Origin: Anaeramoeba flamelloides
Lineage: Eukaryota > Metamonada > Anaeramoebidae
Length of the DNA: 64,000 bases
Assembly: GCA_027625915.1 (NCBI GenBank)
Contig: JANTQA010000038.1
Coordinates: 504,001-568,000, forward strand
Reading direction: 5' to 3'
The position numbers and the translations under genes are program-made. The first letter of the stretch is position 1; the number at the start of each line of letters is the position of its first letter. Below the pieces are notes generated by a model. The model did no database searches. It was not told the origin of the DNA and was given only the letters and a program-made list of their open reading frames with translations. This document shows, in pieces, positions 4,479 to 55,172 of the stretch.

Positions 4479-5499
4479 TATCTTATTTTTTTTTGGTTTT
4501 AGTTATAAATTAATTTCATTTATCATGAGATGGATTTTAGTAGATTATGATTTAAAGTTTGAAAAAAAATTTTTTTAGTTATTTTTTAAATCAAGATTTC
4601 ATTCTTAAAATAAAAAAATATATTTAATACATTAAAAAATAATGAGAATCTTCAAATTTTTGGCCGGCTCTAAGATATTATTACTATTTAAAAAAGGGCA
4701 CGGGTCTAAATTAAGTAATGATTGCTCTCTATAATAAAATGGGGAGAACAAATGATATCACTTCTTTTTGGATATTATATAAAGTATATATAACTAAAAT
4801 TGGCCAAATAATTTATTTTAGGGTAGAAACATTATGATGATTAAAAAATATTAATTTTGGCATAAGTTTAATGGCAATCTAAAAAAATATATATGAGATG
4901 TCTAATAGATTTCAAAAAAATAGCAATTGAATATAAATATTCTTTTTATAAAAAAAAAGTTAAATTATATCTCCTAATTTTCAATTCAAATAATTTGAAT
5001 TATAATTTTGAATAAAAAATATCCCCTTTGTAAAGTGTCTATCGTTTATATTTTTTATGATCTCACATATTTTTTTTCTCATTTTTTCCTATTTCTCAAA
5101 TGATATTTTTTTTTATTGGAAGGGTATTACAAAATTCTAAATTAAAAATGTGGTGGATTAGAATATGCCAACAAACTGGATTCAATTGGGATAAAATGAT
5201 TCTATACTGAAGAGAAACGATTTATGTCAAATTGGGGTATAATTGGGGTTTGAACATGATCTTCTTGAAATTCAATATAATTTAAGTGAAATTATTCAGA
5301 AAGGTTTTTAGCATCAAAACTAAAAGAAGAAAACAATGTTACATAGGATTTACTTAAAAAAAAAAAATAAATTAACCATATGAGCCAAAAATTTGAAAAA
5401 TTTCTTTTAATAGGTGCCTTATTAGAATCATAGAAACTTGAAAAAAGCAAATAAGTGCAATTAGTGAAAGAAAAAATAAATAAATGTTTAAATACAAAT

Positions 5500-5760
5500 G
5501 AAGGATTCAAAACAATAATAGTTTTTTTTAAAACTATCTTTTTGATATGTTTTTTTCTTTTGATTGATCAATAATTAAATATTTTAGAAAAATTTAATAT
5601 TTTTGAGATCTACAAAAAACCATTCAAGAGATTTAGATAATCAAAGAGATTTAAATTTGTTTTGTTGGTTTAATTGGGAATGGTGGAATGGGTTATTAAT
5701 CTATTAAGTTAATTTGTTTCTTATATTAATTGATTTTTCTTTTTGTTTTACATTAAGGTT
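5500..5760. repeat. diverged copy of the 39510-39790 segment
   Basis: In the same orientation it shares runs such as TTTTTGAGATCT, GATTGATCAA and AAGTTAATTTGTTTC, in the same order and spacing, with 39510-39790. Identity looks like roughly 70 percent by eye. This copy is interrupted by stops on the minus strand, where the other copy is open for 87 codons. It could be a decayed duplicate of a coding exon or two copies of a repeat. Confidence 0.5.
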
Positions 5761-6636
5761 TGCAATTATAACACGTGTGTGGGCTTTTTTTTCCATGTTG
5801 TACTTTTTTTCAGAAAGAGTAATATAATAAAGTTTCATAAGGTTACCAATTGATAAAAAAAAATAAAAGGGGGTAAAAAGGATACCAATATCCAAAAATA
5901 CACATTTTAGAAAATAATCACAGACTCTTAATTCCTATTATTTTAATTCATTGAAAAATCCAATATTTTCTAGTTTGATCCTGACACTTACTTAAATTTC
6001 TTTTATTTGAAATAAAAAGTTTTCTTTCAGGGCAAAACTGGATTTAATTAATCGGCATCTGTTTAATTTATGGTTGGTTTTTAGCCCTCTATATTTGATC
6101 TGAAATGATTTTTTAATATTCTTTTTTTATAAAAAAAATAACTTTCGTGAAAAGAAAAATCTTTGAGATCTCAAAAAAGCACCAAAGATCTAAACTCCAA
6201 AACCAACACATGGTTAAATTTAAAACAATAACTTACAACAATTTCAATTGGATCTTGATTGTCTCTTCTTAAGTTTTTTTCAACTTATAAATGTATTGTT
6301 TCTCATTGAATATTTTTTTTCAAGATTTTTCTTACATTATATACTAAATTTTATTTCAAGTTATTTTGCAACATCTTAAAAATTTATAAAAAATTCGGTT
6401 GCTTTGCGCTAATAAACTCTAACATTTTCATTACATGAAAATGATCTCAGAAAGGGTTAATAAAAAAAAAAAAAATAAAAAACGAAAAAATATTTTGGTT
6501 TTATAGTGTAAGTGATAAGATCATTGATTTATTTATTTATTATAAGTAGTTAATCTATGGGAGAAAAGAAAAAATAACAATTTTCAAAGGGAAAGAAAGT
6601 TAAATTCAATAAAATTCAAAAGAATGAAGAGTAAAA

Positions 6637-7977
6637 TTATTTCTTTTTGGAAGCAGATTTGGTGACCTTTCCTGAAACTTCTTTTCTTTCGATGGCCTTG
6701 ATGACACCGACTGCGACTGTTTGTCTCATATCTCTGACAGCGAATCTTCCAAGAGGTGGGTATGAAGTATAGGCTTCAACACACATTGGTTTTGTTGGTT
6801 CAAGGATGACGATAGCGGAGTCTCCGTTTTTGATTGAAACTGGTTTTTCGTCGAGGACTTCTCCTGATCTTTTATCCATCTTTTTGAGGAGAGTTGTGAA
6901 TTTACAGGCGATGTGAGATGTATGACAATCAAGAACTGGTGTGTAGTTGACCTTGATTTGACCTGGGTGGTTCATGACGATGACTTGAGCGGTGAAATTT
7001 TTGACAGCTGCTGGTGGATCGTTTTTGGAGTCACCGGCGACCATTCCTCTTCTGATATCCTTAACGGAAATGTTTTTTACATTGAAACCAACATTGTCAC
7101 CTGGGAAGGCTTCGCTAAGGGTTTCGTGATGCATTTCGACGGATTTGACTTCAGTGGTGATGTTGACTGGAGCAAAGGTAACAACCATACCTGGTCTGAG
7201 GATACCTGTTTCTACTCTACCGACTGGGACTGTACCGATACCGGAGATTTTGTAGACATCTTGTAATGGGAGTCTGAGTGGCTTGTCTGTTGGTCTTTTT
7301 GGTGGGATGACAGTATCGAGGATTTCTAAGAGTGTTGGTCCTTTCCACCATTTCATGTTTGTGGATTTTGTGGTCATGTTATCACCTTGGAAACCGGAGA
7401 TTGGGACAACTGGGACTTTCTTTGGGTTGTATCCAAGTCTTTTCAAGTATCTGTGGATTTCCTTTTTGATTTCTTCGTATCTCTTTTGAGAGTATTGGAC
7501 AGATTTATCATCCATCTTGTTGACAAGGACGATCATTTGTCTGACACCAAGGGTGGATGCAAGGAGTGCATGTTCCCTTGTTTGTCCTCCTTTGGAGATA
7601 CCTGTTTCAAAACCACCTTGGGTTCCGTCAATGACCAATAAGGCAACATCGGCTTGGGAGGTTCCTGTGATCATGTTTTTGATAAAATCTTTATGACCTG
7701 GAGCATCAATAATTGTGAAGTAGAATTTGGAGGTTTCGAATTTCCAGAGAGCAATATCAATTGTGATACCTCTTTCTCTTTCGGCCTTGAGTTTATCTAA
7801 TACCCAAGCGTATTTGAAAGATCCTTTTCCCATTTGGTCGGCTTCTTTTTCGTATTTGGCAATGGTTCTTTTATCAATACCGCCACATTTGTAGATTAAA
7901 TGTCCGGTGGTGGTGGATTTACCAGCATCAACATGTCCAATGACAACTAAATTAATGTGTTGTTTTTCTTTACCCAT
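6637..7977 (-). CDS. EEF1A: translation elongation factor 1-alpha
   Basis: A 446-residue intronless gene for the GTPase that delivers aminoacyl-tRNA to the cytosolic ribosome. All GTPase motifs are present: G1 GHVDAGKST (residues 14-22), the RGITIDIA switch region, G3 DAPGHKD (about 91-97), G4 NKMD (about 153-156) and the G5 region PISGFQGDN. Domains II and III follow intact ([11 protein letters not shown], then the C-terminal [18 protein letters not shown]). The length matches the family (about 445-460), and it ends in a basic Lys-rich tail as usual. Base composition is much less AT-biased than the flanks, as expected for a highly expressed gene. The start is MGKEKQHIN, the canonical eukaryotic N-terminus. 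Reading frames on the opposite strand here are antisense shadows. Confidence 0.99.
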
Positions 7978-10730
7978 TTGAAGTGATTGTTATTAACTGT
8001 TGTTTTTTGATTTTTTGTTCATTTATATACAAAAAAAATTAGGAAGAAAAAAAAAAAAAATTAAAAAAGCAAAATGGATAAAATAAGAAGAAGTTTAATT
8101 CTGAGTGTTTCTCAAAAGGAAAAAAGAAATTAAAAAAAAAAAAAAACAAGGAATAAGAAAAAAACATACTATTAAGAATGTATTACAAAAAAAATGATTT
8201 TAACTTCACAAAAAGCTCTTCTTAAGGTGTTTTCTTTAACCATTAATATGAAGAAGATCAACATCATTTCAGTTTTGTTTCATCCTTTTTTTCAATTCTG
8301 ATTAAATATTCTTCATCCTACGAAAAAATAATCTCGCAAAAACAATTTTAAACTGTTTATACTACAAGGTAATGGTATAATTTTTTTTACAAGTTACGTA
8401 ATCGATATTTTTAGAAAAAAAAAGGATTACTGAAGACTTGTCAAAAAACAAAGTCATAATTTTAAAAGTAAATTTTATTTTTCGTTTACGACGCCTCTTT
8501 AAATTTCAAAAACAGCTGATTTGGAACTGAATATTTTTGAAAAATAAACAATATTTAAAAAATAAGAGCAATTCGAAGAAGCCTTTTCCAATGATCAGTG
8601 CTTAAAAAGAGGATCTTAAAATTGTTGTTTGATTTATACAGAGAAAGTTGTTAATTGTTTTTTATTTCTTTTTGGTGAAATAAAGAGTATTTTCAAATCA
8701 TTTTGCATTATTACAACAAAAAGACTTTTTATATTCGTAATTTTTAGAATTTGAATTCGTAAAGTTAGCATTTTATGAAATTAATCCCAAAAAATAGATT
8801 TTGAAAAGAAATTAAAAAAAAAAACAAGAGTATGAAAGATCTTGATTCAAATTGGTTCTCTCCTCAAGTCCAAAAATGCTTTTTTACCGTTCTTCTAATC
8901 CCAATTGAAAATAATTACAAAAATCTATTCAAGTTGTATTCTAAAAGTAAGAGAAAAATTTTATCGAGTTTGATTCTAACTGTTATAAAAAAAAAGTGAA
9001 TGAGAGTCTTTGGAGTCATACTTTGAAAACTTTTTGTAAAACAATTTTATCACATTTTTTGAAATTATTTTGATGGTTTTGTCATTTGGAAAATCAAAAT
9101 TGTTCAGAAAAGTTATAATGAAACCAAAAGTTGACGAGTAAAAAAACAGTTACTTTTTTTTCAGGTCTGTTTTTTGTTTTTTTGTTTCTAGAAAAAAATA
9201 AAATCATTTCTTGGAACTTCTTTAATTTCCTTCTGTTACCAAAAGTGTGTTGTGGTTTTCTTATCAGAAGATTTGTATTGAAAAAAAAAAAAAAAAAAAA
9301 GTAGTCTATTACAATTTGTAAATGGTTTTGAAAGAAAGCAACAATTTAATTCCAGATCACATTTTGAATAGTTTGGCGGTTAGGCGATGTTAACCAAAAG
9401 AAAGTGAAATTGATTTAATTTTCGAAAACCTCAATAATTGCTCCAATCTCACCTTTCTTCCTTTTCAAAAATAAAAAACAAAAAAAAATCCAGATAATTG
9501 AAAAAAGAAACATTAATTGTTTTTTATTTTTGAAATAGAAAAACACACTCAAAAATCCCTATAATCATTTAACAAACTTGTTTGTGATTGTAATACAATG
9601 TGCTGTATATTTTAAAGAGCGTTTGGTGGTTGGTAATTCTCACAAATTTTATACTCTGTAAGATCTCAGAAGAAATATTTTTCTAGAAATAAAAAAAAAG
9701 AAAAAGCAGGTTGGGAAAAACTTCTTTTTGAGAAATTTTCCATGAAGTCAATTTTACTGTTACTGAACCATTGTTGGTAATTTTTAACAATGTTTTTTTT
9801 TTTAGTCTGTGAGTCTTGAAGGTTGAAAATTCTGATTCAAATAACCAAAATGGAGGAAAATCCTAAAATTTTAGAGTTTTTTATGTGTTATTTTATGTTT
9901 TGATGTAATTTTGACAAAAGTCTAAAAATGTGTCTGTAGTGAAGTATAATTCCCAAATACCCATTTTCTAAATGAAATATCATTTTTTCTCAACCAACTT
10001 TGGATTTTTTGAAAATAAAAAAAAAAAATTATTGACTCGCTTTTTCAAATTTTCTTTTCTCATTAGGGATTTGTTAAAGGAAAAATTCCTCAAAAGCTTG
10101 CAAACAATTTGTCTTCAAACAAACAATTGAGTTTTGAGAGAAACATAACAAATAAAAAAATAGACACACGAAAATAAACCAAATGTTCAGAGTTTTTAGC
10201 AAGGGAAATTCTGTTTAAAAATCAAATAGAGTAAAAGACTAGCCTCAAAATCATTGTTGGGGGGCTTTAATGCAAGAAAAAACAAAAAGAATCAGCCAAA
10301 ATCTAAAAAAAGACAAAGAGACAATCCGAATTTCTTTGTAAAAAAAGTTTTGATTTTTGAAGACAATATAACAACTCAAGTCACCCATTGGTAAAAAACT
10401 CACAGACAATACGATCTTTTAAAGTTTAAGTTGTTTATTGGTGGTGTTGTCAATGATCGTCATTTTGTCTGCTCGAAAATCGAGATATATTTTTCTTTTT
10501 CACACTCACGTTTCTTAATAAGGGTTTTGAAAAATTTCTTTTGAATTTTTTCATTCAAAATAAACACAAAATGGTTTTTTTGATCCAAACTGGAGAATAT
10601 TTCGATGAACATGACTTTGCAATTTAAATGAGATTGGATCAAAAGGTTTTAAGACAACTTGGTTGTTTACAACATGTCCTTAAGTTCAATCAATTCGAAA
10701 ACAGAAAAAAAAAACATTTTAATCAATTAA

Positions 10731-22168: not shown

Positions 22169-23423
22169 TTATTTTTTGATTTTTTTAAAGTAATTGTCAA
22201 CCATTGTAACAAGTTCTGGTTGTGAATTACAAACTCTGTTTGTAATTTTTTGTGGGATTCTTCCTATTGTTTGGTAATATTTTATAAATAAAAGAAATAA
22301 CAGTAAAAAAAAAAAAAAATTTTAATTAATGAGGTTTACAACCAATCTTTGTTTTGGTATTTTTGTTTCAAATACACAAAAAAAAAAACAAAGAGGAAAA
22401 AATTTTTCAATAAACTTACCACAAAGGTCAAAAGCAGCAATATAAATGGCATGGCATTCAGTTCCTTCTTCATTAGGTGTTAAATACCAATCGCTGCTAT
22501 GTAATTTTGCACGGGTGGTTTTCTTTTGTTCTCCATATCCAGAGTATTCGACGGATCTGGCAACCATCATATAGTCTTTTTCGATTTTGGTATATCCTCC
22601 AGCAAGAACAAAGTCTCTTTGTTGAACCATAAATTGGCCATTAAATAAAACTCTAGAAAGTGTTGCCCATTCTGTAACTTCTCCAAGAACAGTTCCAGTA
22701 TTGAAATCACCAGCTATTGTATTGTTTGATTTTTTTTTTTTTTTTTTAAAAAATAATAATCGAAAAATGGGGTTTGATTGAAAGTGAGTAAATAAATTTG
22801 GTTGTTGATCAAGAATCAGTTTTTAATGAATTTGTAAAAGAAAAGTAAACATTTAAATAAGCTTTTTCAAAAATCGTGTCAAAAAAGTTCTTTTATACAG
22901 TTCTTGAAAGTACTCATGAGATTAAACAACTGTTTTAGAGATACTTTTTTGTCATCACTTTTTGATATGAAAAGAAAATGAAATTTGAAATAAAAAAAAA
23001 AAAAATACTGAAAAAAAAAGAAGTAAAAAGAAAAAGTCTCGAAAAAAGGAGAAAAAAAAATTCAATCAAAAGAAAAATTTAAGGATCTTTCTTACTTTTA
23101 TCCCATTTAGATCTAAGTCTAATATCGCCAATAAGTCTAATAATTTCTTCTGGGCTAGCATGGATTGTACCTTCTCCACGAACATAGTGAATATTGTCAA
23201 TGTCCTTAACTTTTTTGATTAATCCCTTTTTGTTGTAGGTTTCTTTCCATCCATCAGATTCAGATCCTTTAACTTTGTCATAGATTTCTTGTAAACCTTT
23301 TTTGACAGTAGAGATCATTGTTTTGACTTCGTCTTTTTCTTTGTCAAGTGTGACCAACTCTGGATAGTTTTCACGAAGATCGTCAAATCCAAAAGGGTTA
23401 TCAATTACAATTTCTTTTGACAT
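22169..23423 (-). CDS. START-domain lipid-binding protein, three exons
   Basis: Exons on the minus strand are 23423-23096, 22713-22420 and 22263-22169. They join in frame (phase 1 at both junctions) to give 238 residues. The introns (382 and 156 bp) have GTAAGA and GTAAGT donors and both end in CAATAG. The protein is essentially one START domain: IHYVRGEGTIHASPEEI, SKWDKTGDFNTG, VLFNGQFMVQQRDFVLAGGY, the charged core DYMMVARSVEYSG, a YIAAFDLCGRIPQKI strand-to-helix turn, and a C-terminal amphipathic helix (PELVTMVDNYFKKIKK) that closes the lipid cavity in this family. The RDFVL block is typical of StAR/PCTP-type domains. No signal peptide, membrane anchor or extra domain is seen, so it is probably a soluble lipid carrier; the ligand cannot be read from sequence. 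Confidence 0.9.
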
Positions 23424-30217: not shown

Positions 30218-30406
30218 TATTATTATCATTATTATTAAAATTGTTGTTATTGTTGTTGTTATTATCATTTTGAGAAATTAATTTTTTTTGTTTTTCTTTG
30301 TTAGATAACGAGGGAAATTGCAAAATTTTTTCGAATTTTGGATTTTTATTTCTAATTTTAATAATTTTTTTATTATTGGATTTAGGAATTTGATATTCAT
30401 TCCAAC
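30057..30406 (-). CDS. Asn/Asp-rich acidic C-terminal tail of the kinase, in a shifted frame
   Basis: This frame overlaps the end of kinase exon 5 and runs on to a stop at 30057. It encodes IPKSNNKK, KFEKILQFPSLSNK, an Asn run, an Asp run from a CAT/ATC triplet repeat (about 30173-30235 on the plus strand), and the end DTILDTLDWKSD. It becomes continuous with exon 5 if the A run of six at 30407-30412 (T on the plus strand) had one more base. No intron of credible length would make the same shift. The tail reads more like the rest of this protein than the alternative end at 30278. Confidence 0.5.
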
Positions 30407-33400
30407 TTTTTTAATCTTCTTAATATTACTTGAATTCAAATCTGAACCTGTATTATAGAATTTTGGCAAAGATTTTGGGAAAACCACAGAATTGTAATGT
30501 TGCTTAATTTTCGAAACTTTCATTGAATTTGTAAAGAGCTTTTTTTGTAATTTAAAATTTATTTTAAATTGGTTATATTGTTTATTTTTGAAATTTAGTT
30601 TATTAAAACAAAATAGTCTCAAAAATAGAAAACATAGTAATTTGTGAATGTCATATGATTCATTTATTAATAATATTAGACAATCTATTCTAATTTCTTC
30701 GAATTTCTTCAAATTATTTAAATTTTGAAAAATTGATGTTTGTAAGTTATCTTTTAAATATTTTAATAAAGTTTTCTGATAATTAAGAAAATACTCTACA
30801 CAATTTACCGTGATAACATTTGTATCCATCATCGAGATAATGGGATCTATCGCACATAAATCTAAAATATAAGTATCCAAAGAATAATTACATTCAAACT
30901 GAGCATTATTCAAATGAAGATCAATTTTTTCTATTATAATTTTTATTAAATTATTTAATAATTGCTTTTCGGTTTTAGATCCATATTTTGATATTTTCCA
31001 CTTTTCTTTTAATTTGTGCAAAATCCTCCTTTGACAATTAATTTCACTGACAACCTAAAAAAAATATAAGAATATCAATAAAAGAATAGAAATTAAATAA
31101 TTATTTTTGAAATTTTGGAGAATAAACAAAGAAAAATGATAAATATAATGTGGAATTGTTTTTTAAAAAAATTTTTTTGTGAAAATTATTAGGCTAAAAA
31201 TAAAAATTATATTTGTAGATGTAAAAATCTATTATTTAATATTTAATGAACAACAATAATAATTTATTAATTGAATAAACCTTTTTATTCCAGAAAAATG
31301 AAAAAGTAATATATCTTTTTCAAATTAATATTTTTCAAAAAATTCATCGACCTTACTCCAAATGATTGTTCAACAAAAGATTTTTCGAGTTTAAATACTC
31401 AAGATTACAAGATAAAAAAATATTTTTTTTAATTTAATTTTCTTTTATTTAAAGCTTTGGAAAGCAACAGAGAGAAATAGAAATATAACTACTTTCAGGA
31501 TAAAATTCAAAATTTGATGTGTCATTTAAACCCAAAAAATGTTTTCCGAAAATAAAATAATTAATACAAATTTTAGTCCAATCTAAAAAAAAAATGAGTT
31601 TATTTCTGACAAATAAGTGAATTTATCCCTTTGATCCTCTTTATTAAGAAATTTCCGATTTGATAAACGGATCAAAATTGAAGTTAATTATTATTATTTA
31701 AATTATTTCAGATATTAATATTTTACTGTTTTTTTGGTCAGTAGGTTTATTATTCAGAAATATTTTTGAATAGACTTTTATTTTTAAAAATATAAATAAA
31801 AAAGAGAAATTCATTTGGAACTTATGTAGTATTTTTTGACCAAGAAATATTGAGATCATTTAATATTTTTTTAAAACAAATTGTGTGTTTAAGTTTAATG
31901 AAACCAAGGAGTTAACATTATCTTCACAATATATTAATATGAGAATAATTTATGAAATCAAAATTACTCATATTTCCAATATAAAACGAAAAAAAGTATT
32001 TATTATTTGAATTTCTCACTCGAGTTAATTCTTGAAATTTGATGTAATCATATTTTAAGTTTTATGTTAGAAAGCATTGTTTTTTTTTAACAATCTTTGA
32101 TTTTGTTTTTATTTTTAATTCTAACTTATTCCTATTTTTATTTCAACAAAGAAAAAAAAACAGAAAAAAATTATAAATGAATAATCTAAAGTTGAGAGAA
32201 GTTTAATTAAAAATTTTCAATTAAATTGAGATCTATTCAGTAATTTTTTTTTTTATTGTTTGATGTTTGAAAAAAGTCGTTTTATATTTTCAAAAAATGA
32301 AAAAAAATTGAACAAAAATTTTTATATTAAAAATTTTTTTAAAAAATTGTTTTTTGTCTTATTCACAAGAATTGTGATAACAATTTATATAATTTTTGAA
32401 ATAAAAAAATTGATTATGAATTTTGAGGTTAAAATTACCTAATTCCCAAAATATCTTTTAGAAAATTTGATTTTGAAAAAATGAAATATTAGTTGAAAAT
32501 TAAAAGTACAGTTTCTCTGATTAAAATTTTAAAAATATTTCAAAAAATTTATTGATCAAAGCTACCCTTCTTAAAACAATATCAGTATTTTCAAGAATGT
32601 TTCAATAAAACAATTTATTATTCTCCCAAAAGAATTATCTCAAAAAAGTAAAAAAAAAAATCTCTTGATTAATATTTCTTAAAATAAATACCATTTATAG
32701 CAGAAGTAGTAATGATGGGAATGGTAATAATCAAAGTAAAAAATGTTTTATTGTATAAGAAATAAAATCGATTTAATATTTTTCTTTTTATTAAAAAAAT
32801 TTCAAAAAAAAAAAATTTGATCTTACTGAGAAAAAATAACCTTTTTGTGTTTCTTAGTAGATCAGAATTTTTTGACACTTGGCATATACAAAATTTGTAA
32901 GTAAAGAATATCACCAATAACGTGTTTTAATATTGGGAGTTTTTATCAAAAAATATTAACACATTAAATAATTAAAAATTATTAATATATCAAAATAGTA
33001 TCCAAAAAACCTGTGGAATTTTATTATTGATTTAAATTAAATACGATTTGGTATATTTTTATTTCTTCTTCTTTTTATAGTTATACAATTTAAAAAAAAG
33101 ACACACGCTTCAATTGACGACAAAGTAAAAATAGATATAAATATTTGATATTTACATTATTATTATTTCACCATTTTTAATTCGAATTAACCCCAAATCT
33201 GATGTATATACAATTCTAAATAATATATATCTTAAACAATTCAATAAAATGTTGATAAGTTGTTTGATATACTGTAAAATTAACATTAAAGAATAAATAT
33301 ATTAAAAAAAAAAAAAAACAAGAATGAGAATAATATGAAAACTTACAGATATTGGACCACTTTGTAACAGTTTAATAATTAAAAATAAAAATTTTAAATA

Positions 33401-36400
33401 ATTTATTATCTTGTGATGAATAGAATTTTTTAATGAAATGATAAAAATTTCTTTGATTAAAAAATTTTTAAGATTAAAGGACTCATCCCAAATTAATTTA
33501 ACAATTTTTTCAAATAAATCCTTATTGTAAAAAACAGTTTTCAGAGAAAAATATTCTAAAATATAGGATTTCATTTTATTTTTTAGAATTAATTCTTCAT
33601 TATTAATGCCATTTTTTCCAATTATTATTTTTTTACTTTGCTTCTTATTAATCTGATTTTTAATTTCTCTTAATTGAATAGGTTTATTTGGCAAATGATG
33701 TATTTGGGTGTTATATTTATTTATTATTTTTTTAATTGAGTCTTGTTGTTTTTTTGAAATATTTAAAATTTCAATTTTTGGGAAAATTTTTGCTTGGTTT
33801 GTTTTAATTTTACTTTTCTTTTTCTTTTTATTTATTTGCTTTTTTTTGTATTTTTTTTTCTTAATATGCTTAGAACTCAATTCATTTTGATCCTTTTGAT
33901 CCTTTTTATTATTTTTATTATTAATAGCAATGATTTTTTTTAATTGGACATTTGTTTCAAATGGATTTACCTGGAGAAACGTATCATCGATATAGAAATG
34001 CCTTGGACAAAGTTTTTGATCGTAATCAAAGAAAACTTTGGACATGCTGACATTTTCAAATGGGTTCAAATTATAAATTTCTTCCTCATCAATTTGTATT
34101 TTCAATTTAACATCTAAAATTTTCTTTTTTCCCTCACTTTCAAGAATTTCTTCTTCACCCTCTGTATTTAATTCCTGTTCATGTTCTTTTTCTTGGCGAT
34201 TCTTTTTCTTCTTTTTTATTCCCATTTTTTTGATAAAGTTATTTTGATCATACGAATTGGCTTTTTTTTGATATTCAGATCCATTCTTATTTTTAACACC
34301 TTTTAAATTTTCTTTAAACTTTGGATTGAAATGTTCAATTTTATTTTCATTCTTTTTTTCCTTATCATTTTTAGTATCCTTTTCTTGATCAAGTTTATTC
34401 TCATGATTTTTTCCATACGATAAATGTTCAGATTGAGCATTATTTACATTTTTATCATCGTCGAATTTAATATCTGTAGTTGTTTGAGTAGTGAATTCAC
34501 CAAATTCAATTTCATTATTTTCTGATCCATTTTCAAGAAAATTATCATCAAATGAAACATCCCAATTATTATCCGATTCTTCAAAATGCTCTTCAAAATT
34601 ATTATTGTTTATAAAATTTTCTGATTTAACCCCTCCCCAAATAATTTCATTCCCATTTCCATTATAATTCCATTTGTTAACATCTTTCACCCTGCCATCA
34701 TTTACATGATCTTTATCGAAATTATTATTATTATGTAAGTTAATGTTTTCTTTATCATTGTTAATCTGCTTTTTTTTTTGTTTATTATTTTTTAAAAAAA
34801 GTTGTTTATCTGTTTTGATACCCTCTTTTATTTTTTTTGGTCTCGTTAATGCCAATGAATCAATTTTCATTATTTTTGAGAGACGGTCATAAACGTCATA
34901 AATGTCTGGTCTTTTTTGTGAATTTTTTTTTAACATAAAAGGAATTAAATCAATAACTTCTTTTCGATAATTATGATTCTCTGGGATTACATAATTATTA
35001 TTTAATATTTGCAAATTTGTTTCTTCATCAAAGGCATCTTTAAAAAATAATAATTTATACAAGACGCACCCAAGAGCCCAAATATCACTCTTTGTATTAA
35101 TTTTTTTATTACAAAACAAATCAACCATTTCCGGCGATCTATATGTTAATGTTGTATTTTTTTCAATGTCAGCTTCAGCTTCATATCTTTCTTCTTGTGT
35201 TTTTGGTGAGTAAACTTTTTGTGTTGCAGATCCAAAATCACAGAGCTTTATCTCCCCATCCTGAGAAATTAACAAATTTTCAACCTGATTAAATATTAGT
35301 ATTTTTATTTATTTGTTTTTTTTATTTTTTTTATAATATTGTAAATTTTAATATTAAGATAATTCCATGCTGTGGATATCGGTATCATGTCAAATTTGGT
35401 GTTATAATTGTTTTTTAAAACAATTTGATAACAGTTTTGTCGAAATTTAAAGTCCAAATTTATAAAGTAATTTCTGTTTTTGTGATAATTATTTTTATTT
35501 TTCGCAATTATTTTATTTTTCATCTCTTGAGTATTTATTAAATGCCTTCATATCACGGAGGCAATGTGCTTGTAATTTTTGAAAATGTTGTTTTGATGAA
35601 AATAAACACCCAAATTCGTTTAAAATACACTTTAGAATCCAAATCTTGATTTACTCTTTGAGTTTAATAAACCTCAACAATCTTTATCTGAAAGTCAACT
35701 GACGAGTACTTAATTAAGAAAAATATATCATATGTATATGAACAATAACAAATTGTTCGTAGTTTGGTTAGTTTTTTTTTTCTTTTCTTACAGTTGTAAA
35801 AAAAAAAAATGTGAAACATCAAAAAAGTGGCACATTTTTTTTTGTCAAATATTAAAAAATTTAATTGTTCACATTCATAAAACTGATCAAAATCACCAGA
35901 TTTTTTTAAAATTTTAATAAGAATTCAAATGAGGACTAAAACCGTTTTAGAAGTATCGAATCACACTTCGATTTTCTAAATTTCAATTTCACCAAGATCC
36001 TTCAAGTAAATTGTTTTAAAAATCAAATTCCTTATTTTTGATTGTTAAGGGAGTACCCACGGTATTGGAAAAATTTTCACTTTTTTGCAATTTTGAAGTG
36101 GATCAGAAAATAACATTTTTTACTCTGGTTGTAACCCATTGGTTTTTATTATTTAAAGTACTTCATTCATTAGATTTTTTAAATTTTTTTTTCAAAGTCT
36201 CAAAGAAATTGCCACAATAGAATCTTGAGTTGAATTGCTTAAAATAGGGTTTCCAATGTTGAATGACTCATCACTTATCCTTATCTCAAAATTCTATTGT
36301 GACATTTAATTTTTTCATTTTTTATTTTTTCATCATTTTTGAATTTTTTTAATCATGACAACAAAAAGCAATAAAAAAGATTTTTTTTATCAGTGGAATT

Positions 36401-38815
36401 TGGGATAAATGGATTTAGTTTAAAAATGAACAACAACATTACAATTGGGAGAATCACAAAAGGAAATACGAAAAGTGCTTAAATAACTATTTGGATTCCA
36501 AAAAATTATAATTATATCAAAAAATTACTGGTTAGGATTTTAAACACTTGAATTTGGTGGAATTGGAGAAATGAATGTGATTATATTTTATCAAATTTTA
36601 AATCACAAAATAGCTATAAGTTTTATTCTAAGAATCTAAAATTATCTTCTCCCAAAAAAAAACTAATGAAAAAAAAAAAAAAATCAAACCAATTTTATCA
36701 ATTCTTTTCTCTTTTTTTTTATTGTTTAATATTAGCTAAAAAAAAAATATAAATACTTTTTTAAAAAAAAATTTTAAATAATATACGATCACACACCACT
36801 AAAATAAAATACTCTTTTCTCATCTCTCTCAAAATTTTATCATGTCTTATAGTGTAGATACTCCCTTAAAGAGTGCAAAAATGATTCTAAAGTATATTTC
36901 AAGTGCAATCTATATCTCATAAAATACACCTTTCAGATATAATCCTTAATATTTAATCTGAATTATTTTGTGAATAAATTGATAAAAAACAAATTTTTGT
37001 ACTAATCACAAATTCTGAAAATGACCAATTTTTGAATTTTTCCATTTTTAATAGTAAATCTTTGTATAACCTGAAAAATTTATTTTTTTAATAAATTGCA
37101 TTGAATATCAAGACTAAGGAATTAAACACCCAAAGGAATTGAGATAAAAATCAAAGAATTAAAAAAAGAAATACTTTATTTTAAAATAATATTTAAAATT
37201 ACAAAGATAAAAAATTGTGATAGTGCATCACTTTCGGGTTCTATTAAGATTGAGTTTTAAAATAAAGTATTGAGTTTTAAGACATTTCTACTTGAACTAT
37301 CTTGTTGAAATTGAAATTTAGAAAATTGAAGTGTGATTCGATACTTCTAAAACGGTTTTAGTCCTCATTTGAATTCTTATTAAATTTTAAAAAAATCTGG
37401 TGGTTTTGATCAGTTTTATGAATGTTAACAATTAAATTTTTTAATATTTGACAAAAAAAAATGTGCCACTTTTTTGATGTGCCACTTTTTTGATGTGTCA
37501 CATTTTTTTTTCACAACATTGATGAAAATTTTATTTAATTCATTGAGCGTAGTCTTTCGAACATATCTATAACCAGGGCAACGTAGTATGAAATGTTAAA
37601 AATTGTTTAATTTATCCTTTTAGAATCTCAAGTTTTTCCTAAAAGTAGTAGATCAACAGAAAAAGTTTTAAACTGTCAGGATATCTAAGATCCGAAAACT
37701 TTTATTTAGAGTACAGCTTATTGAAGTTCTCATTTTTCTCTTGAAATTGGACACTATTAGTTTTTGATCTGTAATCTTATCTATTACAAAGAATGAATAA
37801 AAATTTGATTTCAAAAAAAAAAAAAAAACATTTAAATTGGAAACCTTCTTCGGTATAATAAATAGTTTCTTGGTTTCTGGTATTTGGTAAAGAAGTTTTA
37901 CCATAAATAATTTTCAGGTATCATCAATTGAATCAAAAAGTGTCTAAAATAGAATTTAAAAAAAGCCAACAAAAAGAAAAGAAAGACATTTCTTAAAAAA
38001 AAAAAAAGATAAAAACAAACCTTAATGTCACGATGTATTATTGGCGGATCTAAGGAGTGAAGAAAATGTATAGATCGACAGAGCTTTTCAAAGACCTTTA
38101 ATACATATTTCTCAGAGAATCTCGAATCTTTTTCTAATTTTTTGTTCATTTGGGTTATTACATCACCTTTTTAAGTTTGAAAACAAAAAACAAAAAACAA
38201 AAAACAGAAAAGAAAAGAAAAGAAAAGAAAAGAAACAATGATAATTTTAATTTGATTTGTAAAAGGTTATGAAGAAAAGGAAAAGAATTACTTGCACAAT
38301 ACTCCATGAGAATATACACATAATTGTTTCCATTTTCTTTTGTTTTGATCCAATTTATTAATTCAACGATCAATTTGTGATCTTTGCACATCTTTTGGTA
38401 TTTAATCTCTTTTTTAATTCCTTTCAACTCATCTTCTGATGAGTATATCAATTTTTTTACAGCATAAGTCTCTTTCGTTGATGTGTCTATTGCCTTAAAT
38501 ACAAAACCAAAGCCGCCTAGAAATGGAAAGAATACAGAAAAAAAGAAAAAGAAGTTTTAAAAGTGACACATTCACAAGTTATAATCAGACACATCCGACA
38601 TGTTTTGTGTTGGTTTTTAATTCTCGACACAAATAGTCCTTGCTCAAAAAAAAAATGGATTGTGCTTGAAGAGAAAGAGAAAGTAATTTCTTACCTTCAG
38701 CTATTAGTTTTTGGATTTTTAATTTGTGTTTCCCAATTTGAAGAACTTTTCCAATTGAAGAATTCGAGTGTTTGTTTGAACCTATTGATTTTCCAAAGAT
38801 TGACAAAAAACTCAT
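30278..38815 (-). CDS. AAK1/NAK-family protein kinase with NPF motifs and an ANTH-like C-terminal domain, five exons
   Basis: Exons are 38815-38695, 38516-38292, 38166-38021, 35284-33347 and 31054-30278; all four junctions keep frame (about 1068 residues, or more with the shifted tail). Kinase residues about 35-300: glycine loop AEGGFGFVF, catalytic Lys in YAVKKL, EYCAS, HRDIKVENLL (160-169), DFGSA (180-184), TLTYRSPEM and DIWALGC. HRDIKVEN, the TTLTYRSPEM segment and the PTHR-like spacing match animal AAK1/GAK kinases, which phosphorylate clathrin adaptors. A low-complexity Asn/Lys/Glu linker follows, containing FGEF and two NPFE motifs (about 571 and 604) of the kind that bind EH domains. 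Residues about 734-961 resemble an ANTH helical domain, with LKFLFLIIKLLQSGP and CLILLINESYDIHKLL. The kinase call is firm; the ANTH call is by pattern. Introns 3 and 4 are 2.7 and 2.3 kb. Confidence 0.85.
31055..33346 (-). other. intron 4 of the NAK-type kinase gene
   Basis: It starts with a strong donor (GTAAGT, immediately after codons for GPIS) and ends with TTTTTTTAG before VVSEIN. The 2292 bp are very AT-rich. The small frames inside (32260-32442 plus, 32669-32917 minus) show no domain. No repeat shared with other parts of the window was found. Confidence 0.7.
35285..38020 (-). other. intron 3 of the NAK-type kinase gene, with an inserted element
   Basis: The donor is GTTTGT after HRDIK and the acceptor TCAG before VENLL; the join restores the canonical catalytic loop. 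The intron is 2736 bp, of which 1725 bp is the inverted-repeat element 35793-37517. Without that element it would be about 1 kb. Confidence 0.8.
35793..37517. mobile_element. 1.7 kb element with long terminal inverted repeats, inside a kinase intron
   Basis: The left arm 35793-36008 and the right arm 37289-37517 are inverted copies. The matching runs include GTGGCACA, GTCAAATATTAAAAAATTTAA and CGAATCACACTTC. Identity looks about 95 percent; the right arm carries an extra 18-base unit (GTGCCACTTTTTTGAT-type) in tandem. The interior (about 1.28 kb) has another inverted pair (GGGAGTACCC near 36046 and the complement near 36860) and a small hairpin near 36200-36300, but no transposase. I could not define a target duplication. 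It is a non-autonomous fold-back or TIR element, and looks fairly young given the arm identity. Confidence 0.8.
38205..38240 (+). repeat. AAAAG microsatellite in kinase intron 2
   Basis: Short AAAAAC and AAAAG tandem units lie within the 125 bp second intron (38291-38167), forming a pyrimidine tract on the coding strand ahead of the acceptor. Confidence 0.7.
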
Positions 38816-44550: not shown

Positions 44551-44921
44551 ACAAATTGAGAAAAACACCGTAATATTCTACTTTGACAAAATAAACTTTT
44601 ACAAAGTGAATAATGAATTTAATAAAATAATTCGAGAACAAGATCAGAAAGTTTGAAGAAATCAATTAGAATATGGGCAACTGACTTTAATTTAATTTCT
44701 AAAACAAATTTATCTCTTCGTAGACTATTAAAAGTCTGTTTTAACAAAAATTTTTGCCTCACGAAATGTGATAATGCCAAAAGCCCTTTCTTTTGGTTTG
44801 AAATCAAAAAAAAACAAAAAGTAATTCCATCAACGTAAAACAAATTGAGAACTCTATTATTTTTTATCATTTTTATCAACTTAAGATTGATCTATTTGTT
44901 TCTTCATTGTCTTCGAATTCA

Positions 44922-47732
44922 ATGTCTCTTTTTGGGAATGACTTTTCGAACTTTAATTGGACAGCAAATAATCTTTCGACTGAAAACGAATTCTTCCATG
45001 ATTCTTTAAACCTTTATCCTCCTCCAATACAAAATTCATTCCAAAACAACAAGCAGCGAACAAAACAATCTCAACAGCAAGAAAACGAGAAGGAAAAAGA
45101 GAAAGAGAAAGAGAAAAGGAAAGAGAAAGAGGAAGAGAAAGAACAACAACAGCAAAATCCTCAGTCTTTAGATGACTTAACCTTACCGATCGCTTCTTTC
45201 ATGGAAAGTACCTTCACTGAAAACAACTTTGCACTTAACGGGTTTTGGGATCAGAAAAATAACGAAGGCAACAAAGAAGAGGGTTTCTATGAAAGCTATG
45301 ATCAAGAGGATGAACAACAACAACAACAACAACAACAAGTGCAACAACAGCAACTGGAAAACAATGAAGACAGTGTTCTTTCCTTTGGTGATCCTTTTGA
45401 ACACAAACAAAAGCCTTCTTTGCTGAACACCATAAATTTTTCGTTTCCAGGGATTGAACAAATTGAACCAAATTTTGTTGGCGCCAATGAAGAAAAATAT
45501 TTCATTGATAAAGTCCCAAAAAACAAAACTGTTTGGAAGGGTAATAATAGCCATTTTTTGAAAAACTCGAATAATTTGAATTTTTCACAAATCAAAAATG
45601 AGAACGAACAAAACAAAACACTCAACCAAGGCGATAATTATAAAGACAAGGCTCAACAAAACAATGAAAAAGAACACAAAGAAAACAAATATAACTCAAC
45701 TATTCATCAGAATTTTTCAACAAAACATCAAACACAGATAAAAACTAAAAATAATCCCAACGAATTTGAGCTTAAAATCAAGGAAGAGTCTGAAAGCTTA
45801 CCTTCGAAAAGAAATGCAATACCAAGACTTCAGGGCGATCCCATTGAAAATGAAAAATTTAACAATAGCAGCCAAAAAACATTCAACTCAACGCCCTTTG
45901 ATAAATTGCCAATAAATTCACGACAAAAGAAGAAGGATAAATCTAATAATAATAATAATAAAAGAAATACAAATGGAAATGAAAAAGAGATTGATAGTGT
46001 AAACGAAAAAGCGATTGACAATATAAACGAAAAAGCGATTGATAATGAAAAAAAGAATGATCTTTGTGATGAAATTAAATCCAAAAAATTGAAAAAAAAG
46101 TTAAATCCAAAATCTAAGAAGAAAAGAACCAAAATTGTTTTGGTGAAAAAGAAAATTTCCAATAATATTCAGAATTATATTCAAAAAACCCAAGGTAAGA
46201 AGAAAAAGAAAGACAAGAAAAAGATCAAGACAAAAAAAAATTTTTCTGATAATTATCAAAATAACAAAAATCTTAATAATCAGAAAAAAACGAAAAAAAA
46301 ATCAAATAAAATAAGTTATAGTCAAAATGATACTAATAATAAGAATTCAAAATTTTATATCAAAAAACCAAAAAAAAATAAAAATAATAAAAAAATCATT
46401 TTAAAATATTACAATATGCAAAATAACCATAATAATTTAAACAAATCCAATGTCAAACCTTCTAAAGAAAAAATTAAAATTTATGCTGATCATAATTATC
46501 AAAATAATCAGATCAAGATCAAGAAAAAAAAGAACGAGAAGAGGATAAGGAGACAAAGAGATTGTGGAAAAGAGAAAAGAAAAGAAAAAGAAAAGGAGAA
46601 AGGGAAAAAAAGAGGGAGAGGAAGGGAAAGAAAAAGAGAAAGGGGTGAAGAAAAAGCAAGAGAGAGGAAGAAGATGATGAAGATCCAATATTATTTTAAA
46701 AAAAAAAACAAGAAAAGTAAAAAAAGCAATAAATATAAATTAAAAGATAATTCTTATGGTGAAGAATTAAAAGAAAGAAAAAGAATACATAAACAATTAA
46801 GGTTAGATAAAAATAAGAATCGTTTGGAAAAAAACAGAAATAAGATCAATTCAAAAAAATCTTTCTTTTCTTTTAAATCTTCAATCATATTACATAAAAA
46901 TAAAAAAATCAGATTAAATTTTAAAACTTCAAGAACAGAGAATAATAATAATAATAATGATGATGATAATGATAATGATAATAATGTGGATGAGAATAAT
47001 ACACTTCATAGAATTTATAATTATGGTTTTGTTGAGGATCCAAAAACAAAAAGAAAAATTGGAAAATATTCAAACAATCATCCTAATTTTCGAAAAAAAA
47101 ATAAACTTTCTTCATCATTTCCAAACGATGCAATACGATTCTCATCATCTGGTTCAAATTCCTCTTCTTTAACTTTATCGATGTCATCATTATCGATGTC
47201 GTCTAATTCTTTAACCTTATCATCTTCATCTTCCTCGTTATCATTGAATTCTTCATTTTATTTAGATTCTGTAAACACATTATCATCCTCCCCTTCCTCA
47301 AATTCTTTATCATCGTCATTATCATCCTCGGGATTTCCTTCTTCGTTGGGTTATAAGAAGAAAAACAAATTAAATTCAAAAAACAAATTAAATTCAAAAA
47401 ACAAAATCACTACAATAAATAAAAGTAAACAAAACAATTACTGCAATGATAGCAATATGGATAATAAAGAAAATAAAGGTGAAAGAATGGTGACTTCAAA
47501 ATTAGCAAAAAGAATTTTCGAAAAATGGTTCCAAAAAAATTGTCAAAAAGAAGTTGGCCCATATCCAACTAAAAAAATTAAAAAAAAACTAGCAAAGAAA
47601 ACATTCACCTCCAAAATACATGTCAATCGGTGGTTTGCCCAGCGTAGAAGAGTGGAAAAAATGAAATGGGTAACCGAACAAATCGAAAAACCCCTTTGGC
47701 TGAAAAAAAAGGGAAGGCCAAGAAAGAAATAA
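44922..47732 (+). CDS. low-complexity protein with C-terminal divergent homeodomain and AT-hook-like tail
   Basis: A 936-residue single-exon gene counted from ATG 44922; a TTG five codons upstream is in frame but an ATG start is more likely. The first 850 residues are low complexity: Glu/Lys blocks, Gln and Asn runs, an Arg/Lys-rich stretch, an Asp/Asn run and a Ser-rich block near 730-790. The C-terminus holds a homeodomain-like three-helix unit from about residue 856: LAKRIFEKWFQKN, YPTKKIKKKLAKKTFTS, then the recognition helix HVNRWFAQRRRVEKM. Next comes KKGRPRKK, an AT-hook core, at the extreme end. It is probably a nuclear DNA-binding protein. The usually invariant Asn51 of homeodomains (WFxN) is replaced by Gln (WFAQ). 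The NYP-like spacing before helix 2 recalls TALE types, but I would not assign a class. Confidence 0.8.
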   Translation: MSLFGNDFSNFNWTANNLSTENEFFHDSLNLYPPPIQNSFQNNKQRTKQSQQQENEKEKEKEKEKRKEKEEEKEQQQQNPQSLDDLTLPIASFMESTFTENNFALNGFWDQKNNEGNKEEGFYESYDQEDEQQQQQQQQVQQQQLENNEDSVLSFGDPFEHKQKPSLLNTINFSFPGIEQIEPNFVGANEEKYFIDKVPKNKTVWKGNNSHFLKNSNNLNFSQIKNENEQNKTLNQGDNYKDKAQQNNEKEHKENKYNSTIHQNFSTKHQTQIKTKNNPNEFELKIKEESESLPSKRNAIPRLQGDPIENEKFNNSSQKTFNSTPFDKLPINSRQKKKDKSNNNNNKRNTNGNEKEIDSVNEKAIDNINEKAIDNEKKNDLCDEIKSKKLKKKLNPKSKKKRTKIVLVKKKISNNIQNYIQKTQGKKKKKDKKKIKTKKNFSDNYQNNKNLNNQKKTKKKSNKISYSQNDTNNKNSKFYIKKPKKNKNNKKIILKYYNMQNNHNNLNKSNVKPSKEKIKIYADHNYQNNQIKIKKKKNEKRIRRQRDCGKEKRKEKEKEKGKKRGRGRERKRERGEEKARERKKMMKIQYYFKKKNKKSKKSNKYKLKDNSYGEELKERKRIHKQLRLDKNKNRLEKNRNKINSKKSFFSFKSSIILHKNKKIRLNFKTSRTENNNNNNDDDNDNDNNVDENNTLHRIYNYGFVEDPKTKRKIGKYSNNHPNFRKKNKLSSSFPNDAIRFSSSGSNSSSLTLSMSSLSMSSNSLTLSSSSSSLSLNSSFYLDSVNTLSSSPSSNSLSSSLSSSGFPSSLGYKKKNKLNSKNKLNSKNKITTINKSKQNNYCNDSNMDNKENKGERMVTSKLAKRIFEKWFQKNCQKEVGPYPTKKIKKKLAKKTFTSKIHVNRWFAQRRRVEKMKWVTEQIEKPLWLKKKGRPRKK

Positions 47733-52896: not shown

Positions 52897-53772
52897 TTAA
52901 AGATTCGAATATAAATTTCCAGAGTCGAGAAGCACTAAGGAACGCAAACCGTCTGGCTTTTTTTTTAATCTATTATTTGAAATGTCCAAATAATCGAATT
53001 CAAATTTGATCAGGTCTTGGGGCAGCGCTCTGATCATATTTTGATCTAAGGTTAGAACGGAAAGGGAAAAGCACTTGGTGATGCCTGATGGTATGTGTTC
53101 GATCAAGTTGTCTGAGAGGTACACGCCTTTTAAGCGTTCGAGTGAAAAGAATAATTTGGGCACACTGATGATGAAATTCTGGCGGATATATAAATATTGA
53201 AGCGTTTCCAAATTGACGATTTCGTCTGGGATCGATTGGATTTCATTATTCTCAAGGGAAAGCCAGTACAGCGTCTGCAATTTGCAAACCTCCTTTGGGA
53301 ATTGCCGGAATTTGTTATGGTTCAACGAGAGCCCAAACAGGTCCTCCAGATTTGAAATCTTGTCTGGGATTGATTTTAATAGATTATAATCCAAGCCCAA
53401 ATAGCGTAATGTTTCAATTTTCAAAATCACTGGCGGCAAGGTTTCAAATTTGTTATGTTGCAATTGAAGGTGCGTGATGTTCAACTTGGAAAACTCCTTT
53501 GGTAACGTTTTTAATTGGTTTCTTGATAAGTCGATTTTTTCTAAATTCCTCCAGAAGTTTAAGACATCGCCTGATAAGATCCCACTCACGGGGAAATTGG
53601 TTAGCTGGTGACACGAAAAATCGATAGAGTCTTTTTCTTCGTCAGAGAATTGTTTTAGCATCCGCTTTAAGATTCTTTTAAACTCTTGTTGTTGTGATTT
53701 TTTAATTTTTTTTAATTGCTTTGTTTCTTCTTTGGTCTTGTTTAGTGACGACAACATTGGGTACTTGGACAT
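52897..53772 (-). CDS. leucine-rich-repeat protein
   Basis: 291 residues from ATG 53772 (MSKYPMLSS). The frame is open upstream to 53919 but only from a non-ATG codon, so I treat that part as 5' UTR. A Lys/Glu-rich coiled segment (residues about 10-40) leads into nine to ten typical 23-residue LRRs: LEKIDLSRNQLKTLPKEF, ITHLQLQHNKFETLP, LRYLGLDYNLLKSIPDKI, LFGLSLNHNKFRQFP, LYWLSLENNEIQSIP, LQYLYIRQNFIISVP, LKGVYLSDNLIEHIP, LSVLTLDQNMIRALP and FDYLDISNNRLKKKP. This is the Shoc2/RSU1-like class common in protists. No signal peptide, membrane segment, kinase or GTPase domain is attached, so it is probably a cytosolic interaction scaffold. Base composition is clearly less AT-rich than the flanks. 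Confidence 0.92.
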   Translation of the reverse strand: MSKYPMLSSLNKTKEETKQLKKIKKSQQQEFKRILKRMLKQFSDEEKDSIDFSCHQLTNFPVSGILSGDVLNFWRNLEKIDLSRNQLKTLPKEFSKLNITHLQLQHNKFETLPPVILKIETLRYLGLDYNLLKSIPDKISNLEDLFGLSLNHNKFRQFPKEVCKLQTLYWLSLENNEIQSIPDEIVNLETLQYLYIRQNFIISVPKLFFSLERLKGVYLSDNLIEHIPSGITKCFSLSVLTLDQNMIRALPQDLIKFEFDYLDISNNRLKKKPDGLRSLVLLDSGNLYSNL

Positions 53773-55172
53773 TGTTGGGTTTGTGCTTTTTTGGTTTTTT
53801 GGTTGGAATGGTTTTGGTTTTGGGTTGTGTTTATACTCAATTTCTTTTTTTAAATTTAAAAGTAACAGGTTCTTTTCTTTTTTTGGTTTTTTTTGTTTTT
53901 GTTGATTTTTTTGGTTCAAGAAAATAAGCGAAAAATTAAAATTAAATTAGACAGAATTATTTTGTAATGCTTCGTCGAGTTTATTTAAAGCTTTTTCAAT
54001 TTATTTAAAGCCTTTTCAATTTGTTTAAAAGCTTTTGCAAATCGTGTTTCGTTTTTCAATTAAGGATATATAATTTTATTCTGTACAAAGCATTTTCAGA
54101 ATGCAGATTTAATCTTTGTTTCTATAAAAATAAATGCATAGATTGGCAAATGAGAGTGAAATTTCTGACTTCTGAAAATAAGCTTTCCAATAATTAATAG
54201 ACTTGTTTGGTTTTTCAATTTGACAATATTTAAGTGAGTCAAAATGTTTGGTTGAGATCGGAAAAATAGAGGTTTAAATTTTTTTTTTTTTAATTAACAA
54301 TAACTCATGCAAAAAAAAATAAATACAAAAGTTATTCCATTAAATTCAAGCAATTTTTTTGGTACTTGGTTTATTTGTTAATGTTTTGTTTTATTTTGTT
54401 TTCTTTTCTTTTTTTGTGATCTTTTGAATTTTTTCCTTTCAAAAAAAAGATGTTTTTCTTTTTTTTTCAAAAAAAAATGTCAATTAAAAAAAAAGGAAGA
54501 TAAAAGGTTCAATTTAGTTTTGAGAATTCGCTATTTGTGAAAAGTTAGAATCAATTCTTTGAGAAACTAGTTGCTTTTGTTTTGACTTTTGATTTTTTGT
54601 TAAAGAATAATTTTTAACAAAAAGAGTCTTTTTTATTCATTCGTTTGTAAATCGAAAAAAAAGTTTAAGTGAAAAACAAAAAATTCTTTTTTTATTTTTG
54701 AAACAACAAAGATCAAAAAAGAATATTAAACCCTATCTTCCAATTTCCATTTTGTTTAGTTCATTTTTTTTTTTTGATTTTTGAAAACGAAAAATAAGAG
54801 GCAAAAAATTTTTTTGTTAAAAAGGAAAAATTATTGGCTTGAAAAAAAAAAGAAATAGTTGGCATTTTCTTACCAGTTTATTTTTTTTATTTGGTTTTGT
54901 TGTCTTATTGAATTGCAATTTTTAAAATGATAAAAAAGAAAAGATGAAAAAATGGAAAAATATTTAAAATTGTTGATTTTTATTTTTGAAAGTTATTTTT
55001 ATTTTTATTGGTGGTGAGGGCATAATTGTTGACAACCTATGAAAATTTATAACTTATAGTCTTTGGAGTGAACTATTTTTAGAGAAAGAAAAAAATTCTT
55101 TTTTCTTGTTTGTAAAAAGTTTTCTCTTTTAAAGATAATTATTTCAAACTTTGTTAAATTAAAAAGTTTTAG

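Follow-up and report, generated by a model that had tools for sequence, protein, structure and literature searches.

A predicted NAK-family kinase with a C-terminal Sla2/HIP1R-type ANTH domain, and its six paralogues in Anaeramoeba flamelloides

Kinases of the NAK type, regulators of uptake by clathrin-coated vesicles, and adaptors of the Sla2/HIP1R type occur in yeast and animals as proteins of their own, and they meet in yeast endocytosis. Can the two be parts of one polypeptide, and what would the adaptor domain do for the kinase? The question was raised by a minus-strand gene (38815-30278) of the single-celled eukaryote Anaeramoeba flamelloides, lying in a 64,000-nucleotide (nt) stretch of contig JANTQA010000038.1 (positions 504,001-568,000). 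This stretch is called the window below, and its own numbering is used for the coordinates. We conclude that the gene very probably belongs to a family of seven genes for NAK kinases that each bear their own C-terminal ANTH domain of the Sla2/HIP1R type, by which the kinase would be held at endocytic sites. The evidence on the gene, its domains and its family comes from sequence analysis only. The domain order, the conserved exons, the catalytic motifs, the low ratio of nonsynonymous to synonymous substitutions (dN/dS) in exon 5 of four close paralogue pairs and the division of the copies by their lipid and linker motifs are seen in the sequences themselves.

The kinase and the seven-gene family

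The five exons were spliced, as originally predicted, into an open frame of 1068 amino acids (aa; 3207 nt including the stop codon), and introns 1 to 4 (178, 125, 2736 and 2292 nt) all showed GT-AG borders. Exon 1 (38695..38815, minus strand, as are all exons and protein features below) contains the start codon and aa 1-40, exon 2 (38292..38516) encodes the kinase N-lobe, with an AAK1 alignment that continues over its junctions, and exon 3 (38021..38166) extends up to HRDIK. The kinase C-lobe, the linker, a pre-ANTH block and the first third of the ANTH domain are encoded by the 646 open codons of exon 4 (33347..35284), and the remainder of ANTH, a basic tail and the stop codon by exon 5 (30278..31054), with intron 4 (31055..33346) between them. 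All the motifs that had been quoted for the protein (HRDIKVEN, DFGSA, TLTYRSPEM, NPFE at aa 571 and 604, LLQSGP and LLINESYDIHKLL) were present in the translation.

The kinase domain (aa 34-295; 34892..38716) spans introns 1-3. It was matched by Pfam Pkinase with an E-value of 4.8e-49, and all of the top 12 matches of the PDB sequence search belonged to AAK1, BIKE or GAK, with E-values between 3e-62 and 3e-59 (best AAK1, 3.2e-62). The next matches, NEK1 (4e-26) and then STK16 (5e-23), followed after a gap of more than 30 orders of magnitude. The Lys of VAIK, the Glu of the C-helix, HRD and DFG were all aligned with their AAK1 counterparts, as judged by eye. The claim of an AAK1-type kinase is thus confirmed at the level of sequence, and the domain is assigned to the NAK (AAK1/BIKE/GAK) family.

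The 254-Mb, 76-contig genome assembly was searched for relatives. The ANTH domain of the window copy, used as the query, found itself and six other loci, L018-L023, with E-values of 1.5e-14 to 4.5e-23 (17 candidates scored). Each of the six paralogous loci was preceded, on its own strand, by the C-lobe of a NAK kinase with 62-69% identity, and the exon-5 match began at query residue 92 in every case. The exon-4 part of ANTH was detected by tblastn in three of the six (L018-L020) and by frame reading and alignment in L021-L023. In the gene models, the junctions of which were chosen by hand from frame translations, intron 4 was a GT-AG intron of phase 0 at the same alignment position in all seven genes, with lengths of 589-2967 nt. 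Exon 4 formed a single open frame of 646-1093 codons in six of the seven members, with the same layout in L018-L022. Pfam ANTH matched every member at E ≤0.01 (best 2.3e-14). Because six paralogues show the same order and the same place and phase of intron 4, exon 5 is assigned to the kinase gene, and the proposal that one gene encodes both kinase and ANTH held.

In L023 (contig C70, locus positions 4500-8139), exon 4 had the same layout, but its frame was broken where the linker is rich in lysine and glutamate, and it continued in a second, overlapping frame; a slip in sequencing, an unrecognised intron or a genuine lesion (frameshift) would explain the break.

When the first 200 exon-5 codons were compared, the dS/dN values of the four close paralogue pairs were 0.091/0.013, 0.575/0.080, 0.295/0.048 and 0.647/0.134, corresponding to dN/dS of about 0.14, 0.14, 0.16 and 0.21. 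For three pairs of more distant members, the window copy being part of two, dS was 1.2 to 2.0 and the comparison was little informative.

When the kinase C-lobe was used as the query, at least 11 loci were found at E ≤4.1e-40, followed by a fall to 1.4e-10 (150 of 252 candidates scored). These 11 loci comprised the seven fusions and four more NAK kinases, L046-L049, the tails of which contain two or three DPF motifs each. No ANTH domain was detected near these four (≤6.2 bits in the 9.9-kb surroundings, a range in which an exon further off would escape). L046 and L047 did not differ in the residues compared of their kinase C-lobe pieces. A kinase tree (12 rows, 140 columns) placed these four NAK genes in one supported group (99/100), although the root of the tree is unsure because AAK1 forms a long branch. 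It is the common exon boundary, rather than this tree, that would argue for a single fusion event. Outside the genome, one bacterial locus (L001; 25% over exon-4 query residues 3-216) was the only match among the bacterial and archaeal contigs, and none was found among the viral contigs.

ANTH subfamily, lipid motif and linker

The ANTH domain is encoded by the end of exon 4 (aa 727-810; 33347..33598) and the beginning of exon 5 (aa 811-1006; 30467..31054). Submitted as a C-terminal piece (aa 721-958), it was matched by Pfam ANTH with 26.1 bits (E 5.3e-6; cut-off 21.5), and with 24.7 bits when cut otherwise. The match, aa 791 to 951 or 955, crosses the junction of exons 4 and 5; neither exon 5 alone nor the exon-4 tail alone gave a Pfam ANTH match. 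Two local hidden Markov models (HMMs) were built from the ANTH domains of Sla2 (two species) and HIP1R, one without and one with CALM, and the C-terminal piece scored 38.6 and 40.6 bits against them, respectively. The best of 5000 shuffles reached 13.3 and 9.2 bits and the reversed piece -0.2 and 0.2. The exon-5 frame ranked first (26.9 and 24.8 bits) among the 975 six-frame open reading frames of at least 30 codons in the window, the runner-up scoring 3.8 and 4.2. The predicted ANTH-like C-terminus was therefore recovered by the Pfam search of the piece and by the matches in all seven family members. The ENTH (8.5 vs 24 bits) and DUF5043 (18 vs 25 bits) models remained below their cut-offs on the same piece and were discarded.

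CALM/AP180 had been proposed as the family for comparison, and this part of the original prediction was not borne out. In the PDB, the sole matches of the window domain were the ANTH domains of Sla2 and HIP1R, besides one unrelated ligase obtained with a shorter query. By hhalign, the domain was linked to the Sla2/HIP1R profile with a probability of 93.6 (E 2e-7), to Sla2 alone with 78.8 and to the four-sequence profile with 81.6, the best of 60 shuffles reaching 2.3, whereas CALM gave 0.4. The profile of the whole family found, up to E 10, only Sla2 (5.5e-13 to 3.4e-12) and HIP1R (6.5e-10) in the PDB, in a library that also holds the CALM and LAP chains. Its hhalign probabilities were 98.6 for Sla2/HIP1R (E 4.8e-16), 97.6 for Sla2 alone and 95.6 for HIP1R alone vs 0.3 for CALM. 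Hence, by profile comparison, the domain is assigned to the Sla2/HIP1R subfamily, and a CALM/AP180-type ANTH is rejected. The likeness to CALM/AP180 consists in the common ANTH superfamily and in the KNKY of L018-L020 (group A) where CALM has KKKH; the difference consists in the lack of profile similarity and in the presence of separate CALM-type loci in the same genome. Sla2, HIP1R and HIP1 combine ANTH with a coiled coil and an I/LWEQ domain, and our protein resembles them in its ANTH subfamily but differs in that ANTH is C-terminal, behind the kinase, and in that the Pfam scan gave no I/LWEQ match in the protein.

The ANTH phosphoinositide motif is KxK[HY]. At the columns of PKRKH in Sla2, PKNKY was found in L018-L020, KDLET in L021 and L022, KDLEY in L023 and YNKDL (aa 750-754; 33515..33529) in the window copy. 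The motif is hence kept in three of the seven copies and lost in four, the window copy included. Before the paralogues were included, the placement from the window copy alone was unsure, with YNKDL aligned in five of eight MAFFT runs, LKNKM in three of eight and the region left unaligned by hmmalign in two of two. The original prediction of a membrane-binding adaptor is thus consistent with the three paralogues that keep the motif, but for the ANTH of the window copy membrane binding is unsupported since KxK[HY] is missing.

The linkers differed as well. In the window copy and L018-L023, in this order, 2, 0, 0, 0, 11, 11 and 2 NPF motifs and 0, 7, 7, 2, 1, 1 and 1 DPF or DPW motifs were counted, those of L023 on the second frame only. 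The two NPF motifs of the window copy (aa 571, 34058..34066, and aa 604, 33959..33967), each followed by E, had been noticed in the original prediction and exceed chance (0.06 expected, P 0.0013 in 20,000 shuffles). The same linker contains FDDNF (aa 409-413; 34538..34552; P 0.06 vs shuffles), which we take to be an FxDxF motif of the AP2 alpha-ear type, and FGEF (aa 425-428; 34493..34504; P 0.02 vs shuffles), presumably a gamma-ear-type core. DPF, WxxF and clathrin-box motifs were also sought there, with zero matches each. A polybasic stretch ahead of ANTH (aa 631-660; 33797..33886; net +14 in 30 residues) could conceivably allow a weak membrane contact. It is followed by the pre-ANTH block (aa 661-708; 33653..33796), which scored 19.3 bits against the six-paralogue profile (best of 2000 shuffles 10.9). 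This block of about 48 residues could be aligned in all seven members and corresponds to no named domain. A motif similar to F-x-x-L-D-W was seen in the linker or C-terminus of four of the seven: L018, L019, L020 and L023 (forms FDTLDW, FAVLDW, IDTFDW and FDSLDW).

Alternative readings and the exon 4-5 junction

Several findings weigh against the proposed kinase-ANTH reading. When the whole 1068-aa protein was submitted to the Pfam scan, ANTH was not listed. The window ANTH is divergent, being 29-31% identical to the other six, and its dS to two paralogues (1.5 and 2.0) is near saturation, for which reason the low dN/dS is not extended to this copy. Compared singly with HIP1R alone, the window copy reached an hhalign probability of 1.9, so the HIP1R link rests on the family profile. 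Finally, the linker of the window copy is shorter and contains 2 NPF motifs, and the lipid motif has been lost.

These data leave some room for the view that the C-terminal domain is a mere helical solenoid of the ENTH/ANTH/VHS kind and that its Sla2/HIP1R affiliation is an artefact of the few references used. The low identity (24% over 145 columns), the poor pairwise score with HIP1R and the absence of the lipid motif from four of seven copies would all fit a generic solenoid. The same holds for I/LWEQ, absent from the protein and not found in the genome by a search whose control was silent. The CALM model was made from a single sequence, and a single-sequence structure model of the exon-5 part alone, with a predicted local distance difference test (pLDDT) score of 39.7, gave no confident fold. 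Against this, CALM and LAP were available in the PDB library yet remained unmatched up to E 10, and the family profile separated HIP1R and Sla2 from CALM by the wide difference in probability given above. Moreover, the eight other ANTH loci of the genome (L002-L009) fitted the CALM model (25.6-85.6 bits; 8.4-33.8 with the Sla2/HIP1R model) and reached at most 2.8 bits with the family model. We regard the generic solenoid as unlikely. The ninth Pfam ANTH match in the genome (contig C30) was exon 4 of L018.

An equally small chance is given to the window copy being a decaying or neofunctionalised duplicate, in which the kinase is retained and the adaptor part disused. The divergent ANTH, the shortened linker with few motifs and YNKDL in place of KxK[HY] are what such a duplicate might show. 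Yet the frame is open over 1068 codons with canonical splice sites, the two NPF motifs with E after each are beyond chance and the catalytic residues are aligned with those of AAK1. The function of the window copy may nevertheless have drifted, as its divergent ANTH, shorter linker and lost lipid motif suggest.

The remaining alternative concerns the join of exons 4 and 5. Against the two local HMMs, exon 5 alone scored 29.5 and 30.2 bits and the exon-4 tail 2.2 and 1.7, and joining them added 9-10 bits. Shuffled exon-4 tails attained the joined score in 3/5000 and 0/5000 cases. Of 212 candidate donors, the true one was the best by one profile; by the other it came third, after two pieces of exon 5's own frame. 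With a profile of the six paralogues, the window copy left out, the last 91 codons of exon 4 scored 36.9 bits, exon 5 123.4 and the joined sequence 166.7, compared with ≤10.4 bits for shuffled tails and ≤7.1 for shuffled joins (2000 each). Before the paralogues were considered, the evidence for exon 5 in the same gene was moderate; the genome settled the question in favour of a single predicted gene. A misjoining of two adjacent genes, with exon 4 stopping inside the intron and exon 5 forming a separate ANTH gene, might be read from the length (2292 nt) and AT-richness (18% G+C) of intron 4, from the short extension to a stop on in-frame read-through of its donor and from the window signal for known ANTH coming mostly from exon 5, but it is highly improbable and was rejected, since exon 5 opens without a start codon, the domain match crosses the junction, the donor and shuffling tests favour the join, the exon-4 tail is recognised on its own and the same junction recurs in six paralogues.

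Intron 3 of the gene contains a long inverted repeat (35805-36038 and 37259-37491) with two arm pairs, one of 110 nt with 95% complementarity and one of 137 nt with 87%, over a span of about 1.7 kb; it looks like an inserted terminal-inverted-repeat element, and a 37-base probe from one arm was found within the window in the two arms only. Elsewhere in the window there are an eEF1A gene (6637-7989), a START-domain exon (22322-22822), a 976-codon open frame with Homeobox_KN near its end (44802-47732; E 1.6e-7) and a leucine-rich-repeat gene (52897-53946). The Rfam and tRNA scans of the window returned 0 and 0 matches.

Proposed function and its meaning

The AAK1 tail carries DPF/NPF-type motifs, and GAK bears PTEN-like and J domains; to our knowledge, none of the known NAK members has an ANTH domain. 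The present protein resembles AAK1, BIKE, GAK, Ark1 and Prk1 in its kinase domain and in a linker with motifs of the DPF/NPF type. The trypanosome TbAAKL is described, in a part of its report, as an N-terminal kinase with a disordered C-terminus (PMC5399782). In an excerpt of a survey that covered 84 genomes and 1134 ENTH/ANTH/VHS proteins, the domains are N-terminal, the Sla2/HIP1R subfamily is restricted to Opisthokonta and Amoebozoa, and the Chromista and Excavata of the sample are reported to have no ANTH (PMC3473312). No kinase-ANTH fusion was found in searches of an open-access paper library, subscription journals and eukaryote protein databases being outside their scope, and a fusion of this kind may well be on record there without having been remarked upon. 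One candidate text, PMC10441952, was discarded, as its relevant part concerns anthocyanin.

In the mechanism that we propose for the seven kinase-ANTH proteins, ANTH and the linker would bring the kinase to the clathrin coat as it forms. The group A proteins would contact phosphoinositide directly through ANTH and the AP2 ear through their DPF motifs. In the other four, NPF would bind EH-domain scaffolds, in L023 and the window copy (two NPF motifs each) more weakly than in L021 and L022, and in these four an ANTH without the lipid motif may act as a protein-docking module. Nine EH-type matches above the cut-off were found in the genome, all of them partial, and some may represent other EF-hand proteins, EH being a kind of EF-hand. 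Of 16 ENTH matches in the genome, seven fell at CALM-type ANTH loci and nine elsewhere. The tethered kinase would then phosphorylate adaptors locally, AP2 mu or epsin/Eps15-like proteins, as AAK1 and Ark1/Prk1 do. According to passages of the respective papers, AP2 mu is a phosphorylation substrate of AAK1 (PMC5785209), and Ark1/Prk1 act on Pan1 in yeast endocytosis (PMC4775215).

The window-ANTH query found the seven kinase fusions only, and no I/LWEQ-bearing Sla2/HIP1R was found in the search with the silent control. On this basis we tentatively raise the possibility, in our view a rather doubtful one, that in this lineage the Sla2/HIP1R-type ANTH persists chiefly as the part that targets a NAK kinase. 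If this is true, a kinase that in other organisms works on the coat from without would here be a coat component itself, and its subtypes would be tuned in two ways, by lipid binding together with AP2-ear motifs or by EH binding in the absence of lipid binding.

A fusion that has been retained and has grown to seven genes suggests that kinase and adaptor are directly linked in function. It brings the Sla2/HIP1R-type ANTH into a new protein position, C-terminal and without I/LWEQ, and the split of KxK[HY] among the paralogues raises the question of what role an ANTH domain plays without its lipid site. The family would offer a system for studying kinase recruitment within one polypeptide.

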